Assembly (NCBI RefSeq): GCF_001375555.1
Contig: NZ_CTDZ01000009.1
Location: forward strand, 2,039,758-2,103,757
Reading direction: 5' to 3'
DNA from: Numidum massiliense
GTDB lineage: Bacteria > Bacillota > Bacilli > Thermoactinomycetales > Novibacillaceae
DNA: 64,000 bases
Shown here: positions 7,408 through 44,792 of the stretch, piece after piece
Numbering within the stretch: the first letter of the stretch is position 1
How the letters are laid out: each line of letters opens with the position of its first letter
Translations under genes and position numbers: made by a program
The notes under the pieces: generated by a model
Database searches by the model: none
Told to the model about the DNA's origin: nothing
What the model saw: the letters and a program-made list of their open reading frames with translations, nothing else

Positions 7408-9023
7408 GTATGTGTCAAGCTTTACTCGACGACCTTACAGGATCAAGGATTTAAAGACCTAAATATGTCATTCCCTAACGTTCACTTGTTGTCCGCCCTT
7501 GAGGAGTTAACTCTTCAAGGACGGCGATTAACCACCTTATCCAAATACCCAATAGCACTTGAAGCTGATGCGGCACCTACTTGGATCCTGCCAACTTGAA
7601 CCCCAATGTGATCCGACTTACCTATTCGCCTCGCATGGCGTTTTAGTTTTTGTGTCACTTGGCGGTTGGGCCAGACAGTTAATAATGCCTGTCTCAACGT
7701 CCCATTGGTAACGCCTTGTTGTACTTTGGCGATGGCTTGAGCCCCTTCTTCACTCCAGTACATGCCACGACGTTTCATGCGGTATGCCAGACGTCTCTGG
7801 TTCGATTCCATGCATCCCATCCTACGAGCATTTTTTGGCACGTCTGGACTAACCTCACGCCAGTCGCAGAGGATCTCCCAGTGCCCTTCAAGATACTTCT
7901 GCATGTTCTCGATACGCTTTTCCTCTCGCTCCGTCTCTGCATTTCCCTGTGCCGTATCAATCACCGCTTTAAACCTATCCTTATTTTTTTCGGATATTGC
8001 CTTTTCAATTTGAGGAATGAGCCTTGGCTGGCGGCTCAACCCGCGACGAATACTCCTCTTTACGTGAAAAGGATCCAATTGGCGGACAACCGATGTCGCT
8101 TCAGAAAAGGTATTTTGAACGCGTTCCTCAGAGATCCATGAAGCCGCATCCGCATTAGTCGCCACATGTGTATGTGAGAGATCCCAACGATGTCGAATCG
8201 CTGCATAACCTATTTCCCAAAAGTCATCCACCGATTCAACGGTAGAAAAGACGTGACGATCTGTTAACGAGACACGCTGTCCGTTTTGCTCCCACCCGGT
8301 ATAGGCAAGCATATTTTTGATCTCTATTCCTTTGCCTCTCCCTTTGACGTATAAGCCATCTGCTTCGCAATATAAGTGCTTAACGGACGGAGAGTTAGGA
8401 ATTACCGTATCCTCAAAAATTCGATCCCTTTTTTCAGCATCCATGACAGCTTGAGCTTCACCTGCTTCTTTTACTAAGCGCTGAAACGTCGTATGGCTGA
8501 TCGTTATACCGGCAAGTTTTTGCGTGACCTCTGAGGCGAGGCGGTAGGTCATTCCCGGCGCTGCAGCTAACTCTGCTCCGAGCATCATAAGGTCTGGGCT
8601 GTATCTTTTACGGCGTTTTAAACCGATTGCCTCATCGACAGGGTAATGTGCGTTTCCGTTTCGGTCGTACATCAAGTGGCGTTTATAGGACACTGTCCCA
8701 AAAAAACTGGTGAACTCCCGGCTGTCCAATCGCTCACTTTTCCAACCGTATTTTTCCTTGTAATGCGTCGTCATCATCTGATCGAGCTGCTCCAAAAATT
8801 CTCCGAACAGATCAGCCATCACTTCCATCAGGCGAATACGTAAGCTTTCCCAAAACGACAACATATCTGTAGACTGTTCCAAGATAGTAGCGATTTCTGG
8901 TATAATGGTTTTCAAGGAAGACCTCTCCTTTCGTGGTGGTTAGGAGTACTATTTAGGTCTTCCTTTTCTATATTCTCCCTCCAAATTCCTGCTAAAACCC
9001 TTCGAGAGAAATGTTACACATAC
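7408..9023 (-). mobile_element. ISLre2-family insertion sequence, complete
   Basis: A 1616-bp element holding one full transposase gene. The ends form imperfect inverted repeats: 17 of the first 24 positions match between 7408-7431 and the complement of 9000-9023, and both begin GTATGTGT. It is flanked by a perfect 9-bp direct duplication, the size known for ISLre2. An intact gene, recognisable ends and identical duplications indicate a recent insertion between nagB and the 9164 gene. Confidence 0.93.
7515..8915 (-). CDS. ISLre2-family transposase (UPF0236)
   Basis: A 466-residue transposase, full length for the family. Typical segments are the helical N-terminus with KYGWKSERLDSREFTSFFGTV-type start, GMTYRLASEVTQKLAGITIS, the acidic YCEADGLYVKGRG and the C-terminal RMGCMESNQRRLAYRMKRRG. 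Start is TTG with AAAGGAGAGG upstream. No frameshift or stop is seen, so it should be active. Confidence 0.95.
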   Translation of the reverse strand: MKTIIPEIATILEQSTDMLSFWESLRIRLMEVMADLFGEFLEQLDQMMTTHYKEKYGWKSERLDSREFTSFFGTVSYKRHLMYDRNGNAHYPVDEAIGLKRRKRYSPDLMMLGAELAAAPGMTYRLASEVTQKLAGITISHTTFQRLVKEAGEAQAVMDAEKRDRIFEDTVIPNSPSVKHLYCEADGLYVKGRGKGIEIKNMLAYTGWEQNGQRVSLTDRHVFSTVESVDDFWEIGYAAIRHRWDLSHTHVATNADAASWISEERVQNTFSEATSVVRQLDPFHVKRSIRRGLSRQPRLIPQIEKAISEKNKDRFKAVIDTAQGNAETEREEKRIENMQKYLEGHWEILCDWREVSPDVPKNARRMGCMESNQRRLAYRMKRRGMYWSEEGAQAIAKVQQGVTNGTLRQALLTVWPNRQVTQKLKRHARRIGKSDHIGVQVGRIQVGAASASSAIGYLDKVVNRRP

Positions 9024-9032: not shown

Positions 9033-9163
9033 TCTGTGGGCGTTCGCTTCTGCGTTCGGGAGAGGGGGCATACGCCTCAATTGATGCGTGGGGGGTCATT
9101 TTTTGTTATCAGAAAGACGAGCGAATTCATATGTTATAGTGTTTAAACGAGGAGATGAGGGCG

Positions 9164-9460
9164 ATGTACGATCTACCATACACTGTGCACGGCTTAGCGA
9201 TCCAATACCATCCGTCACCGATGTGTGACTGTCCCCAATGTCGGTGGTGGTTCTACGGACACCCTTACCCGTTTGATCCTTACGGCTACGTATCTTGGCG
9301 CCCCTCGCCCTTTGCGCGGTCGCGCACACTGGACGCTACTCCTCTGACGGAGCGCACACCTAGCGACACGAACAACTTCTTTACTAACCCGCGACGTTTG
9401 CTGTTACTCATCTTACTCATCATCGTCATCTTTTGGTTTATTGGGGGCGTACGCTTCTAA
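9164..9460 (+). CDS. Small tail-anchored protein, sporulation-type (tiny membrane-tail family)
   Basis: A 98-residue protein. The second ATG (9164) is preferred because GAGGAG lies nine bases before it and abuts the first. The head is aromatic and Pro-rich with a CDCPQC cluster (residues about 21-26). The C-terminus is a single hydrophobic segment (LLLLILLIIVIFWFIGG) after NPRR. That tail is nearly the same as in the three tiny proteins at 10213-10854, so the four form a family with different heads. CATATGTTA upstream (about 9128) resembles a sigma-E/K -10 element. Function unknown. Confidence 0.75.
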   Translation: MYDLPYTVHGLAIQYHPSPMCDCPQCRWWFYGHPYPFDPYGYVSWRPSPFARSRTLDATPLTERTPSDTNNFFTNPRRLLLLILLIIVIFWFIGGVRF

Positions 9461-9488
9461 CGGAGAAACACTGACTAGCCCCGTGAGA

Positions 9489-9528
9489 CAAAAAAAGCTG
9501 TTGCCCGTAAGTGGCGGGCAGCAGCTTT
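9489..9528 (-). terminator. Intrinsic terminator of the 42-bp-repeat gene
   Basis: Minus-strand AAGCTG-C-TGCCCG pairs with CGGGCA-A-CAGCTT, then seven T. It may also stop + strand transcription from the 9164 gene. Confidence 0.8.
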
Positions 9529-9539
9529 CACTTATGTTG

Positions 9540-10181
9540 CTATAAATTCCTGCTCTCGCTCGGAAAACCCGAGCGTGGAATGGACACTCGCCCCATACCC
9601 GGGCTGATCCCTTGCACGCCCGGGGCGAACCCAGGACCAGACGGCGGACCACCCATTCCAGGACCAGGCGGCGGACCGCCCACCCTCGGACCGAATCCGG
9701 GTTCGTGTTCGATACCCAATCCGTACCCTTGTGGGCCCATGCCTAGGAAACCATCAGGACCGAACCCGGGACCAAGCGGTGGCCCGCCCATACCAGGGCC
9801 ATAGCCAGGGCCACCCATACCTGGGCCGTCCATGCCGGGGCCGAAGCCGGGGCCACCCATACCTGGACCGTCCATGCCGGGGCCGAAGCCAGGGCCACCC
9901 ATACCTGGACCGTCCATGCTGGAGCCGAAGCCAGGGCCACCCATACCTGGGCCGTCCATGCCGGGGCCGAAGCCAGGGCCACCCATGCCAGGATCGCCGT
10001 ATGGGCCGTATCCTTGACCTGGCGGACCCCCTTTACCTGGTTTAAACAAGCGGCGTCTTTTGCCTTTGCCTAGGCGTCCTTTTTGCCGCATGCCGTACCG
10101 GGGAGGACCGGGGCCGGGGCCGAACTTGGAGACGCCCGGATACTTTCCACGCATCCGCCGCATGATAAGCGATTTTAGCAA
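9540..10181 (-). CDS. Gly/Pro/Met-rich repeat protein, probable spore coat component
   Basis: A 213-residue protein starting at TTG, with AGGAGG seven bases upstream. The first 50 residues are strongly basic (MRQKGRLGKGKRRRLFKPGK), followed by a Gly/Pro/Met region with four 14-residue repeats (MGGPGFGPGMDGPG type) encoded by 42-bp units. The C-terminus is a degenerate continuation. There is no signal peptide or membrane segment. Neighbouring tiny membrane-tail genes and the composition suggest a coat or exosporium filler protein; this is inference. It is not a true Gly-X-Y collagen repeat. Confidence 0.75.
   Translation of the reverse strand: MLKSLIMRRMRGKYPGVSKFGPGPGPPRYGMRQKGRLGKGKRRRLFKPGKGGPPGQGYGPYGDPGMGGPGFGPGMDGPGMGGPGFGSSMDGPGMGGPGFGPGMDGPGMGGPGFGPGMDGPGMGGPGYGPGMGGPPLGPGFGPDGFLGMGPQGYGLGIEHEPGFGPRVGGPPPGPGMGGPPSGPGFAPGVQGISPGMGRVSIPRSGFPSESRNL
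9809..9992 (-). repeat. 42-bp tandem repeat inside the Gly/Pro/Met protein
   Basis: Four full units start at 9809, 9851, 9893 and 9935, with a partial fifth from 9977. The spacing is exactly 42 bp and units differ at only a few positions. The reading frame is kept, so each unit adds 14 residues. Confidence 0.92.
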
Positions 10182-10212
10182 ATCATCCCCTCCTTTCTGC
10201 GCCCTTTCCGCC

Positions 10213-10308
10213 TTAGTTCCAAATGAACCAGAAGAAGATGATGATCAACAGGATTAACAACAACAACCCGCGATAGTTGTAAAAACCGTATCCAGCGTAA
10301 TTCTTCAT
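10213..10308 (-). CDS. Tiny membrane-tail protein 1 (31 residues)
   Basis: Starts MKNYAGYGFYNYRG and continues with the hydrophobic tail LLLLILLIIIFFWFIWN. GGAGG lies ten bases before the ATG. The tail is identical in the two genes upstream. The layout (Gly/Tyr head plus one membrane segment) recalls the YjcZ-type tiny sporulation proteins, but the tail sequence differs from the usual form. A CATACGATA element (10345-10353) stands about 40 bases upstream. Confidence 0.82.
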   Translation of the reverse strand: MKNYAGYGFYNYRGLLLLILLIIIFFWFIWN

Positions 10309-10344
10309 AGGCGACAGACCTCCTCTCTCTCTTCGCAATCACCA

Positions 10345-10353
10345 TATCGTATG
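10345..10353 (-). promoter_or_regulatory. Sigma-E/K-like -10 element, gene 1 of the tiny family
   Basis: CATACGATA on the minus strand fits CATA-N3-TA. The same nonamer occurs at the matching place before gene 2. Confidence 0.5.
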
Positions 10354-10413
10354 CCTGTATGGCGAGGTTCGTATGGACATTTGTTTAGCATAAAAGATAA
10401 ATGTTTGAAAAAA

Positions 10414-10441
10414 ATGCCCAGCTAAACGCCTAACCAGGCAT
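10414..10441 (-). terminator. Weak terminator after tiny gene 2
   Basis: Minus-strand ATGCC/GGCAT stem with a long loop, followed by seven T. Confidence 0.45.
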
Positions 10442-10451
10442 CGTTAGAGGG

Positions 10452-10577
10452 CTAGTTCCATATGAACCAGAAGAAGATGATAATCAACAGGATTAACAGC
10501 AGCAATGCGCGGTAGTTAAAGAAGCCGTATGCTCCTTTCACCGGATAAGAGTAGCCTGCGTATCCATCTACTCCCAT
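10452..10577 (-). CDS. Tiny membrane-tail protein 2 (41 residues)
   Basis: Head MGVDGYAGYSYPVKGAYGFF, then NYRA and the shared tail LLLLILLIIIFFWFIWN. AAAGGAGG lies nine bases before the ATG. Same orientation as copies 1 and 3, with its own upstream CATACGATA element, so the copies seem to be separate transcription units that arose by tandem duplication. Confidence 0.84.
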   Translation of the reverse strand: MGVDGYAGYSYPVKGAYGFFNYRALLLLILLIIIFFWFIWN

Positions 10578-10611
10578 GTAGCAAAGTCCTCCTTTGTTAT
10601 TAAATTCAACA

Positions 10612-10620
10612 TATCGTATG
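10612..10620 (-). promoter_or_regulatory. Sigma-E/K-like -10 element, gene 2 of the tiny family
   Basis: CATACGATA, with the same following TG as before gene 1. It is about 35 bases upstream of the start codon. Confidence 0.5.
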
Positions 10621-10682
10621 CGTACAATCATCCTGCCGTATAGACGTTAGCGGTGGGCATTCGTTTAATTGTCACTCTAGAT

Positions 10683-10708
10683 AAAAAAAACCCGGCATAC
10701 GTGCCGGG
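10683..10708 (-). terminator. Intrinsic terminator after tiny gene 3
   Basis: Perfect 7-bp stem CCCGGCA/TGCCGGG with a TACG-type loop, then eight T on the minus strand. Confidence 0.9.
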
Positions 10709-10728
10709 CGTTACTTTGACAAGAGAGG

Positions 10729-10854
10729 TTAGTTCCAGATGAACCAGAAGAAAATGATGATCAACAGGATTAATAGGAGCAAGCCACGGTAATTGTAAAA
10801 ACCGTAACCGCCATAACCTTTGTAACCGCCGTAACCGCCGTATCCCGTACTCAT
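10729..10854 (-). CDS. Tiny membrane-tail protein 3 (41 residues)
   Basis: The head MSTGYGGYGGYKGYGGYGFY has a GGY/GYG repeat; NYRG and the shared tail LLLLILLIIIFFWFIWN follow. GGAAGGAGG precedes the ATG, and a perfect terminator follows. It is a paralogue of the two downstream genes and related through the tail to the 9164 protein. Confidence 0.85.
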   Translation of the reverse strand: MSTGYGGYGGYKGYGGYGFYNYRGLLLLILLIIIFFWFIWN

Positions 10855-11014
10855 TCGTTTGTGTCCTCCTTCCATGCCAAAGTTATTACACTATATGGAA
10901 CTGGCGTTAAACCTGTATACGCACTTATACTGAGTGAATGGCCCAACTTTTTTGAAACTGCCTCAAACGGCGACGTGACCCCCTTCTTCCGCTACCGCCG
11001 ACCGTTCGTAATAG

Positions 11015-11112: not shown

Positions 11113-12246
11113 ATGTTTTATGTAAAGCTTCTTATTATTTTGGTATGCGTTAAACTAGCTGGGGATTTATCCGCGCGCGTGGGACAACCCCCCGTACTCG
11201 GCAAGCTCCTCGTCGGTGTGCTCGTCGGACCGGCTGTGTTAGGATGGATCGAATACGATGATTTAATCCACCAGTTTGCTGAAATCGGAGTGTTATTGCT
11301 CATGTTCGTCGCCGGACTAGAAACAGATTTAAACGAATTGAACAGGAACCGTAACTCCTCGCTCGCCGTTGCAGTCGGCGGTGTTATTTTCCCCTTGTTA
11401 TTCGGTTATTTAGCGGGGAAACTCATCGGGGTGAACGATATCGAGGCGGTTTTTTTCGGTCTTTTACTATCTGCGACATCCGTTAGCATTTCCGTGCAAA
11501 CGCTGAAAGACATCGGAAAACTACAAACGCGGGAAAGTGTCACCATATTAGGCGCGGCAGTCGTCGACGATATTCTCGTCGTTATTTTACTCGCCTTTAT
11601 GACGAGCTTCATGCTGGAAACCCCTGGCGCAGACGAAAGCGTCCTGCTCGTCATCGGGAAGCAAGTGCTTTTCTTCGTACTCGTCTTTTTAATTGGTTGG
11701 AAACTTATACCGTGGCTCATGCGCCTTATGTCAAAATTAAAAGTGACATACGTCATCGCCAGCGGTGGACTCATCGCTTGTTTCGGCTTAGCTTTCTTAG
11801 GGGAAAGTCTCGGTGTCGCGGGAATTATCGGTTCTTTCGCCGCCGGGTTAGCGCTCTCGCGCACCGAATACAAAGCAGAAGTAGAGCGTTCGGTCGAACC
11901 GATTGCCTACACGATCTTTGTCCCCGTCTTCTTCGTTAACATCGGATTATCGGTAACGTTTGAAGGGTTAGGCGACCAAATATGGTTCATCGTCGGAATG
12001 ACAATTTTGGCCATTTTGACGAAGTTGATCGGTTGCGGCTTAGGCGCCCGCATGACTGGCTTCAACACGAGTTCCTCGATCGCGATCGGTTCTGGGATGA
12101 TCTCGCGCGGGGAAGTGGCGCTCATTATCGCCCAACTCGGATTGACAGCAAAAATTTTACCCGTCGAATACTATACGGCGATGATCATTGTAGTTATTTT
12201 AACGACGATCGTGACACCGCCGATGTTGAAAAAAACGTTCGTTTAA
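11113..12246 (+). CDS. CPA2-family cation/proton antiporter
   Basis: A 377-residue polytopic membrane protein (about 12 segments) of the monovalent cation:proton antiporter-2 family. Early motifs GQPPVLGKLLVGVLVGP and EIGVLLLMFVAGLET are typical. The paired aspartates in AAVVDDILVV (about residues 152-153) mark the ion-binding core, as in electrogenic NapA-like members. It lacks the C-terminal TrkA domains of KefB-type members. AAAGGAG precedes the ATG. It is monocistronic behind a sigma-A promoter. The ion (Na+ or K+) cannot be told from sequence. Confidence 0.92.
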   Translation: MFYVKLLIILVCVKLAGDLSARVGQPPVLGKLLVGVLVGPAVLGWIEYDDLIHQFAEIGVLLLMFVAGLETDLNELNRNRNSSLAVAVGGVIFPLLFGYLAGKLIGVNDIEAVFFGLLLSATSVSISVQTLKDIGKLQTRESVTILGAAVVDDILVVILLAFMTSFMLETPGADESVLLVIGKQVLFFVLVFLIGWKLIPWLMRLMSKLKVTYVIASGGLIACFGLAFLGESLGVAGIIGSFAAGLALSRTEYKAEVERSVEPIAYTIFVPVFFVNIGLSVTFEGLGDQIWFIVGMTILAILTKLIGCGLGARMTGFNTSSSIAIGSGMISRGEVALIIAQLGLTAKILPVEYYTAMIIVVILTTIVTPPMLKKTFV

Positions 12247-44305: not shown

Positions 44306-44483
44306 GCGAACAAGTGACGGTCAGCCCGACCTAAACGCCGCGAACCCACTCTGCCTATTCACCACTTTTTTTATTTCCTGCGGGATACTCACCCTTACAA
44401 ACCCCTGTCCTCGAACATAATGTAAAGGGATCTCACAAAAGGAGGATACACCTTTAGTGCTCACTTGCAGGAGGGGGGTGAAT

Positions 44484-44792
44484 ATGGTGGGCTACGACGG
44501 AATGATGGGTTTCTGTCATGAGCACATCGGAAAGCCTGTGCAAATGCAATTTAAAGATGGTACCGTCATGGATGGCGTCATTCACGAAGTTCACGATGAC
44601 GGGATCATGTTTGCGCCGATGGGAGACGGCGCGATATGGATGAAGGGCGGTAAAAAAGGTAAAACTGCTCACGCCATCGGTGACGCTAACAATTCCTCGC
44701 CACGGACAAAAACCGTCCAGTTCTTTTTTGCCCCGTTCTTTGTTCCGTTTGCAGCGATTGCGGCGTTTTCACTCGCTTGGTGGTGGTGGTAA
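44484..44792 (+). CDS. Small protein with Sm-like core and hydrophobic tail
   Basis: A 102-residue protein. Residues 10-50 (FCHEHIGKPVQMQFKDGTVM, DGVIHEVHDDGIMFAPMG) resemble a small Sm-like beta barrel; the C-terminus is hydrophobic and ends in four Trp (FFAPFFVPFAAIAAFSLAWW). The ATG at 44484 follows GGAGGGGGG. A GTG at 44457 also has AAAGGAGG upstream, giving 111 residues. A spore-surface or membrane role is possible; function unknown. Confidence 0.7.
   Translation: MVGYDGMMGFCHEHIGKPVQMQFKDGTVMDGVIHEVHDDGIMFAPMGDGAIWMKGGKKGKTAHAIGDANNSSPRTKTVQFFFAPFFVPFAAIAAFSLAWWWW

Follow-up and report, generated by a model that had tools for sequence, protein, structure and literature searches.

A family of small proteins with a common C-terminal membrane tail in Numidum massiliense and its relatives, putatively made late in sporulation

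The window, that is, the whole 64,000-nt stretch of the Numidum massiliense genome analyzed here, encodes a C-terminal membrane segment that is common to one 98-aa protein on the plus strand and to the products of three tandem genes on the minus strand. Four proteins of 31, 41, 41 and 98 aa with one such tail had been described from the letters alone (the sequence-only reading), and the reading of the open reading frames confirmed them; a Shine-Dalgarno-like sequence is found at each of the four genes, in agreement with the separate ribosome binding sites claimed there. Searches of the same genome found the tail family at these four places only. The features of the locus are listed below in window positions. 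G001 denotes the sole other genome of the window's family in the sample, and L064 its locus.

9128..9136 (+): CATATGTTA, sigma-K-like -10 before the 98-aa gene, with no AC at the expected distance; a weak, single element
9164..9460 (+): long-head protein of 98 aa (group B) with the tail RRLLLLILLIIVIFWFIGGVRF at its C-terminus
9540..10181 (-): Gly/Pro-rich 213-aa protein with 42-bp tandem repeats and a TTG start; syntenic 182-aa counterpart at L064 8176-8724
10213..10308 (-): 31-aa tail protein (group A)
10345..10372 (-): AC-N17-CATACGATA, predicted sigma-K-type promoter of the 31-aa gene and probably also of the Gly/Pro-rich gene
10413..10442 (-): terminator-like hairpin and T run that separate the 10452 gene from the 10213 gene
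10452..10577 (-): 41-aa tail protein (group A)
10612..10639 (-): AC-N17-CATACGATA, predicted sigma-K-type promoter of the 10452 gene
10690..10709 (-): terminator-like hairpin and T run that separate the 10729 gene from the 10452 gene; a similar one was seen by eye after the G001 gene
10729..10854 (-): 41-aa tail protein with a Gly/Tyr-repeat head (group A); syntenic 35-aa counterpart at L064 7909-8016
10889..10916 (-): AC-N17-CATATAGTG, one mismatch from the sigma-K-type pattern with the same spacing, before the 10729 gene

The three minus-strand heads, MKNYAGYGFYNYRG-, MGVDGYAGYSYPVKGAYGFFNYRA- and MSTGYGGYGGYKGYGGYGFYNYRG-, are each followed by LLLLILLIIIFFWFIWN (31, 41 and 41 aa), and the C-terminal ends are RGLLLLILLIIIFFWFIWN or RALLLLILLIIIFFWFIWN for the short genes and LLLLILLIIVIFWFIGGVRF for the 98-aa protein. 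ATG 9155 is an alternative start of the 98-aa gene that would add three residues; since it abuts GAGGAG, ATG 9164 is the better start. Judged by hydropathy only, the tail proteins consist of a tiny head and one membrane segment, with the exception of the 98-aa protein, whose head is long, Pro/aromatic and not Gly-rich. At the DNA level the short genes are tandem duplicates, two copies showing 80% and 84% identity to the reference one across 88 nt. The family is unannotated, that is, no Pfam or NCBIfam model matches: the few rows returned for the four window tail proteins and the Gly/Pro-rich protein are all below cut-off, 10 relatives likewise gave no match over cut-off, and with E up to 10 NCBIfam gave a single row, PP0621 against the 98-aa protein (E 3.8, 7.9 bits versus a cut-off of 45). 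An Rfam search of the locus gave no match. The tail family is not described in the titles and abstract openings of the openly accessible literature searched.

Since consecutive short genes are separated by hairpins with T runs, each of the three looks like its own transcription unit. The Gly/Pro-rich gene is located between the 98-aa gene and the short genes and has no promoter pattern of its own within the window; its TTG start is only 31 nt downstream of the 31-aa gene, and the two are therefore probably co-transcribed. The 42-bp tandem repeat in it (9780-9993, 5.1 copies, 90% matches) encodes the Gly/Pro/Met repeats of the 213-aa protein. The neighbourhood is the same in G001, where genes read by eye were compared with window genes named by Pfam: G001 has MinD-like and nagB-like genes, a long-headed gene, a Gly/Pro-rich gene and a single short gene, the MFS transporter, lipoprotein-like and YlbF-like genes are also kept, and the long-headed gene is on the strand opposite to the short gene, as in the window. 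Two window genes are absent from the syntenic G001 places, namely a UPF0236-type (PF06782) transposase-like gene at 7515-8915 (-), between nagB and the 98-aa gene, and a Na/H-exchanger gene (PF00999) at 11113-12246 (+), between the short genes and the MFS gene. The G001 counterpart of the 98-aa protein has 57 aa (L064 8806-8979, start chosen by a Shine-Dalgarno-like sequence), and a second short copy is found about 29 kb away (L063).

The tails of the short genes, compared between the window and G001, have pS 0.63 and pN 0.019, with pN/pS 0.029 (6 pairs of 19 codons). Such a pS against such a pN between two genera means that the similarity of the short tails is not due to chance, and the family is real and conserved under selection. 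In a second Bacilli family (f13), pN/pS of the tails is 0.158 for 130 pairs, which are between loci rather than strictly between genomes, L117 and L121 coming from one genome. Each of the five f13 genomes has 2-7 matches, including two or more neighbouring copies in a tandem array. The sequence-only reading had named absence of the short ORFs from relatives as evidence against itself; they are conserved, in synteny in G001 and in 5/5 f13 genomes.

A superfamily profile (A3) was built from 23 tails, many of its rows coming from the two matching lineages themselves. At E up to 0.001 it matches 43/398 sampled Bacilli genomes, with 1-16 matches per genome: the five of f13 and 38 of the 42 sampled genomes of the window's order, the remaining four not being among the matches listed. 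spoIVA is present in 269/398 Bacilli genomes drawn likewise, and all 43 are among them. As the 43 genomes represent two lineages, the family lives in spore-formers, which is not the same as many independent events tying it to sporulation. An earlier profile, A2, in which four rows are from one f13 genome (G048), matched 22/398 genomes at E up to 0.01; its matches beyond the window's order and f13 (E 0.001-0.01) were rejected as chance and are not recovered by A3 at E up to 0.001. A scan of named genomes with A2 confirmed one place, a 19-residue match in Flavobacterium, which is also taken for chance. Profile-profile comparison joins groups A-F by eleven pairs with scores 30.7-64.1, of which the weakest, B with F, is barely above the range of five reversed-sequence controls (13.6-29.0).

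The heads had been described as different, and the proteins as modular. Their distal parts do vary, but all three short heads end in GYGF(Y/F)NYR(G/A) directly before the tail, and the differences are mainly N-terminal of it. Free shuffling of heads and tails is unsupported, since the short heads share this membrane-proximal part and the CDCPQC of the 98-aa head is absent in G001, whose long-headed counterpart has one Cys and lacks CDCPQC throughout its complete 91-codon open frame. The two long proteins have tails that are closer to each other (pN 0.153, one pair) than to the short ones (pN 0.222, ten pairs). Because of the shared GYGF(Y/F)NYR, the separate tail variant of the long proteins and the 57-aa G001 head without CDCPQC, the sequences point to old paralogues whose heads evolve fast and whose tails evolve slowly, with the short gene also duplicated in tandem, rather than to head exchange.

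The sequence-only reading had also noted an element common to two of the genes, and CATACGATA is indeed found upstream of both the 10452 and 10213 genes, on the coding strand as AC-N17-CATACGATA. The sigma-K consensus is AC-N16/17-CATANNNTA, and CATACGATA fits a sigma-K-type (late mother-cell) -10. In the window the pattern is exact before two of the four tail genes, has one mismatch before the third and is absent before the 98-aa gene, whose G001 counterpart has neither the pattern nor the -10 alone. Of the sequence upstream of the 10729 gene, G001 retains the GTGCGTATAC and CCATATAGTGTA blocks. For B. subtilis, an excerpt of PMC517825 describes sigma-K promoters with two elements 14-16 nt apart and places yjcZ and gerPA in the sigma-K regulon.

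Based on the 160 nt upstream of each gene, AC-N16-18-CATANNNTA precedes 13/25 A/B/C genes, about half of the members examined, where genes of one array are not independent, and all 13 have exactly 17 nt between the elements. None of 87 controls from nine of the same loci has it; these are the longest non-overlapping ORFs of at least 200 aa, and some of their starts may be wrong, since they were taken mechanically. A first-order Markov null gives a mean of 0.27 and a maximum of 3 in 300 rounds. The -10 alone is found in 16/25 genes vs 5/87 controls. The test is weaker when one mismatch is allowed (17/28 A-D genes vs 9/101 controls), and one of those nine controls, the L123 gene read as gerPC, is preceded by an exact match that is plausibly a true site. 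The copy on contig 261 of G116, which the regular expression missed, and one of three G071 matches are left out of both the 25 and the 28. Seven C genes are without the exact pattern, and for five of these, which follow another copy at no more than 120 nt, transcription could continue from that copy. In groups E and F, of the window's order, only 1/16 genes have the two-part pattern, so that the timing of expression may differ there. SigK is encoded in the window genome (372.6 bits vs a cut-off of 298.65). As for the sigma-E type CATACANT, it was rejected as the shared element (0/25 A/B/C genes, 1/87 controls); CATACAAT upstream of the G001 Gly/Pro-rich gene makes sigma-E possible for that gene.

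In the 64-kb window the exact N17 pattern has three sites, two of them at tail genes, where the chance mean is 1.04 and 9/100 shuffles reach three. The third site, 44397-44424 (+), is 59 nt before a gene for a 102-aa protein at 44484-44792 (+), which has a hydrophobic C-terminus with WWWW at its end and matches the Sm-like PF14438 only weakly (E 0.0047, below cut-off). This gene is a candidate for a further late sporulation gene with a C-terminal tail.

The orientation in the membrane can be predicted from flanking charges. By the positive-inside rule, positive residues flank a membrane segment on its cytoplasmic side. In every one of the 25 A/B/C proteins, an Arg precedes the Leu run by two residues and the sequence past the hydrophobic stretch is free of acidic residues, which suggests a cytoplasmic head, although both group B proteins have an Arg after the segment too, blurring the argument.

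Some members are located beside spore genes. One f13 array adjoins a GerA-type germination operon, and a more distant tail protein, RHLLLFILTLIVIFWFIFPEEF (group D), is present in 3/5 f13 genomes:

L122 4661-4798: group D tail protein
L123 5074-5169: group D tail protein
L126 4011-4109: group D tail protein

In two f13 genomes group D is downstream of gerPC (identified by a Pfam match for the G048 gene and by eye for the other), with two ORFs in between that were read by eye as gerPD and gerPE. The link to sporulation drawn by the sequence-only reading is thus supported by spoIVA in all matching genomes, by the sigma-K-type promoter before some members and by these neighbours.

The explanation that we prefer, and to which we give about an even chance, is that the tail proteins are mother-cell membrane proteins made under sigma-K that display Gly/Tyr segments toward the growing coat. 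They would form an unannotated family of single-pass membrane proteins of 30-100 residues, made late in sporulation by the mother-cell RNA polymerase with sigma-K. The conserved hydrophobic C-terminus would insert in the membrane with the preceding Arg on the cytoplasmic side, and the Gly/Tyr-rich head (Pro/aromatic in the 98-aa protein) would stay in the mother-cell cytoplasm. The membrane would most likely be the outer forespore membrane, so that the heads face the growing coat and may provide coat material, for example the neighbouring Gly/Pro-rich protein, with a layer that is tethered to the membrane and can possibly be cross-linked. We infer the coat role from neighbours and composition. 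SpoVM, one of several tiny spore proteins associated with mother-cell membranes, is also located at the outer forespore membrane, where the tail proteins would reside if this is right; it differs in having an amphipathic surface helix and no Gly/Tyr head. YeeK is a Gly/Tyr-rich coat protein with late mother-cell expression. Such coat proteins share the Gly/Tyr richness of the heads, and none is known to have a membrane tail.

Alternatively, the family may belong to the forespore or inner spore membrane and serve germination or membrane stability rather than the coat. The array beside the GerA-type operon is in favor of this, and so are RsfA/GerR-like regulator genes within 5 kb of order relatives in 7/11 order loci fetched (L067, L069, L070, L071, L072, L073 and L124, two pairs of the seven being from one genus each), RsfA of B. 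subtilis being a forespore regulator. However, with 106-125 bits all seven RsfA-like proteins fall short of the RsfA cut-off (126.45), and they are similar to GerR and YlbO as well, which are mother-cell regulators; the promoter pattern, in both the window's family and the second family, is of the mother-cell type. We therefore regard a forespore location as rather unlikely.

Somewhat more doubtful is that the tail proteins are divergent members of YjcZ (TIGR01732, tiny_TM_bacill), with nothing new beyond a missed annotation. Both families have a tiny, often Gly-rich head and one membrane segment, are multicopy in spore-formers and have a sigma-K-type promoter in some members: AC-N16-18-CATANNNTA precedes 4/12 YjcZ genes, and yjcZ belongs to the sigma-K regulon (PMC517825, in part). 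YjcZ family genes are also among the sporulation genes that a table in PMC8313275 gives as missing from a strain, and an excerpt of PMC11796252 names YjcZ among membrane-associated small proteins. However, TIGR01732 has no match in the window genome or G001 at E up to 1, and the seven of 61 genomes where it is over cut-off are all outside the window's order. The profile-profile match of A+C with YjcZ, with a score of 26.7, would speak for such kinship, but it is short (10 columns) and one of the five reversed controls reaches 29.0, and the scores of YjcZ with four of the A-F profiles (18.3-26.7) are all within the control range. The YjcZ core is ALIVVLFILLIIVGA, compared with R-LLLxILLxIxFFWFI in the tail family; the FFWF block is missing from all twelve YjcZ proteins read, of which a single one has an Arg close to its segment. 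The statement of the sequence-only reading that the tail differs from YjcZ is supported by the lack of a TIGR01732 match and by a profile-profile score within the control range. Type I toxins, small hydrophobic peptides often in tandem arrays, each of which would be silenced by an antisense RNA, would fit the size, hydrophobicity and arrays, but the Gly/Tyr heads, the confinement of matches to spoIVA genomes, the sigma-K-type promoters and the lack of a plus-strand sigma-70-like site inside the three short genes in a simple consensus scan make this very unlikely.

Proteins of a mirrored layout accompany the f13 genes. Each of the five f13 arrays has at least one companion in which the membrane segment comes first and a Gly/Tyr stretch follows:

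L065 (= L006), L116, L117, L118 and L119: mirrored companions inside the f13 arrays, with a WSWIW-type segment followed by a Gly/Tyr tail

A profile of five companions matches 9/398 Bacilli genomes at E up to 0.001, namely the five of f13, G001 and three weaker ones, with no match in the window's genome; the score of the companion set (W) in profile-profile comparison, 22.5, is inside the reversed-control range (13.6-29.0). As an extension of the mother-cell coat explanation, both layouts might present Gly/Tyr segments at the outer forespore membrane, on its mother-cell side, and nucleate the coat there, as a lineage-specific tethered layer in which these segments would condense or cross-link, beside or instead of the SpoVM-based anchor. 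This is a long shot, since the two-part promoter pattern is found before 1/7 companion genes (the -10 alone before 2/7) and a Lys or Arg just after the segment was seen by eye in 2/5 aligned companions.

Annotation easily misses proteins of fewer than 50 codons, and the members tested here matched no curated model. If the mother-cell coat explanation is true, an order of spore-formers has an unrecognised spore protein family with 1-16 copies per genome in the 38 genomes listed, whose promoters would serve as markers of late mother-cell genes where a species lacks experimental data, and the family would offer a compact system for studying how the coat is tied to the membrane.
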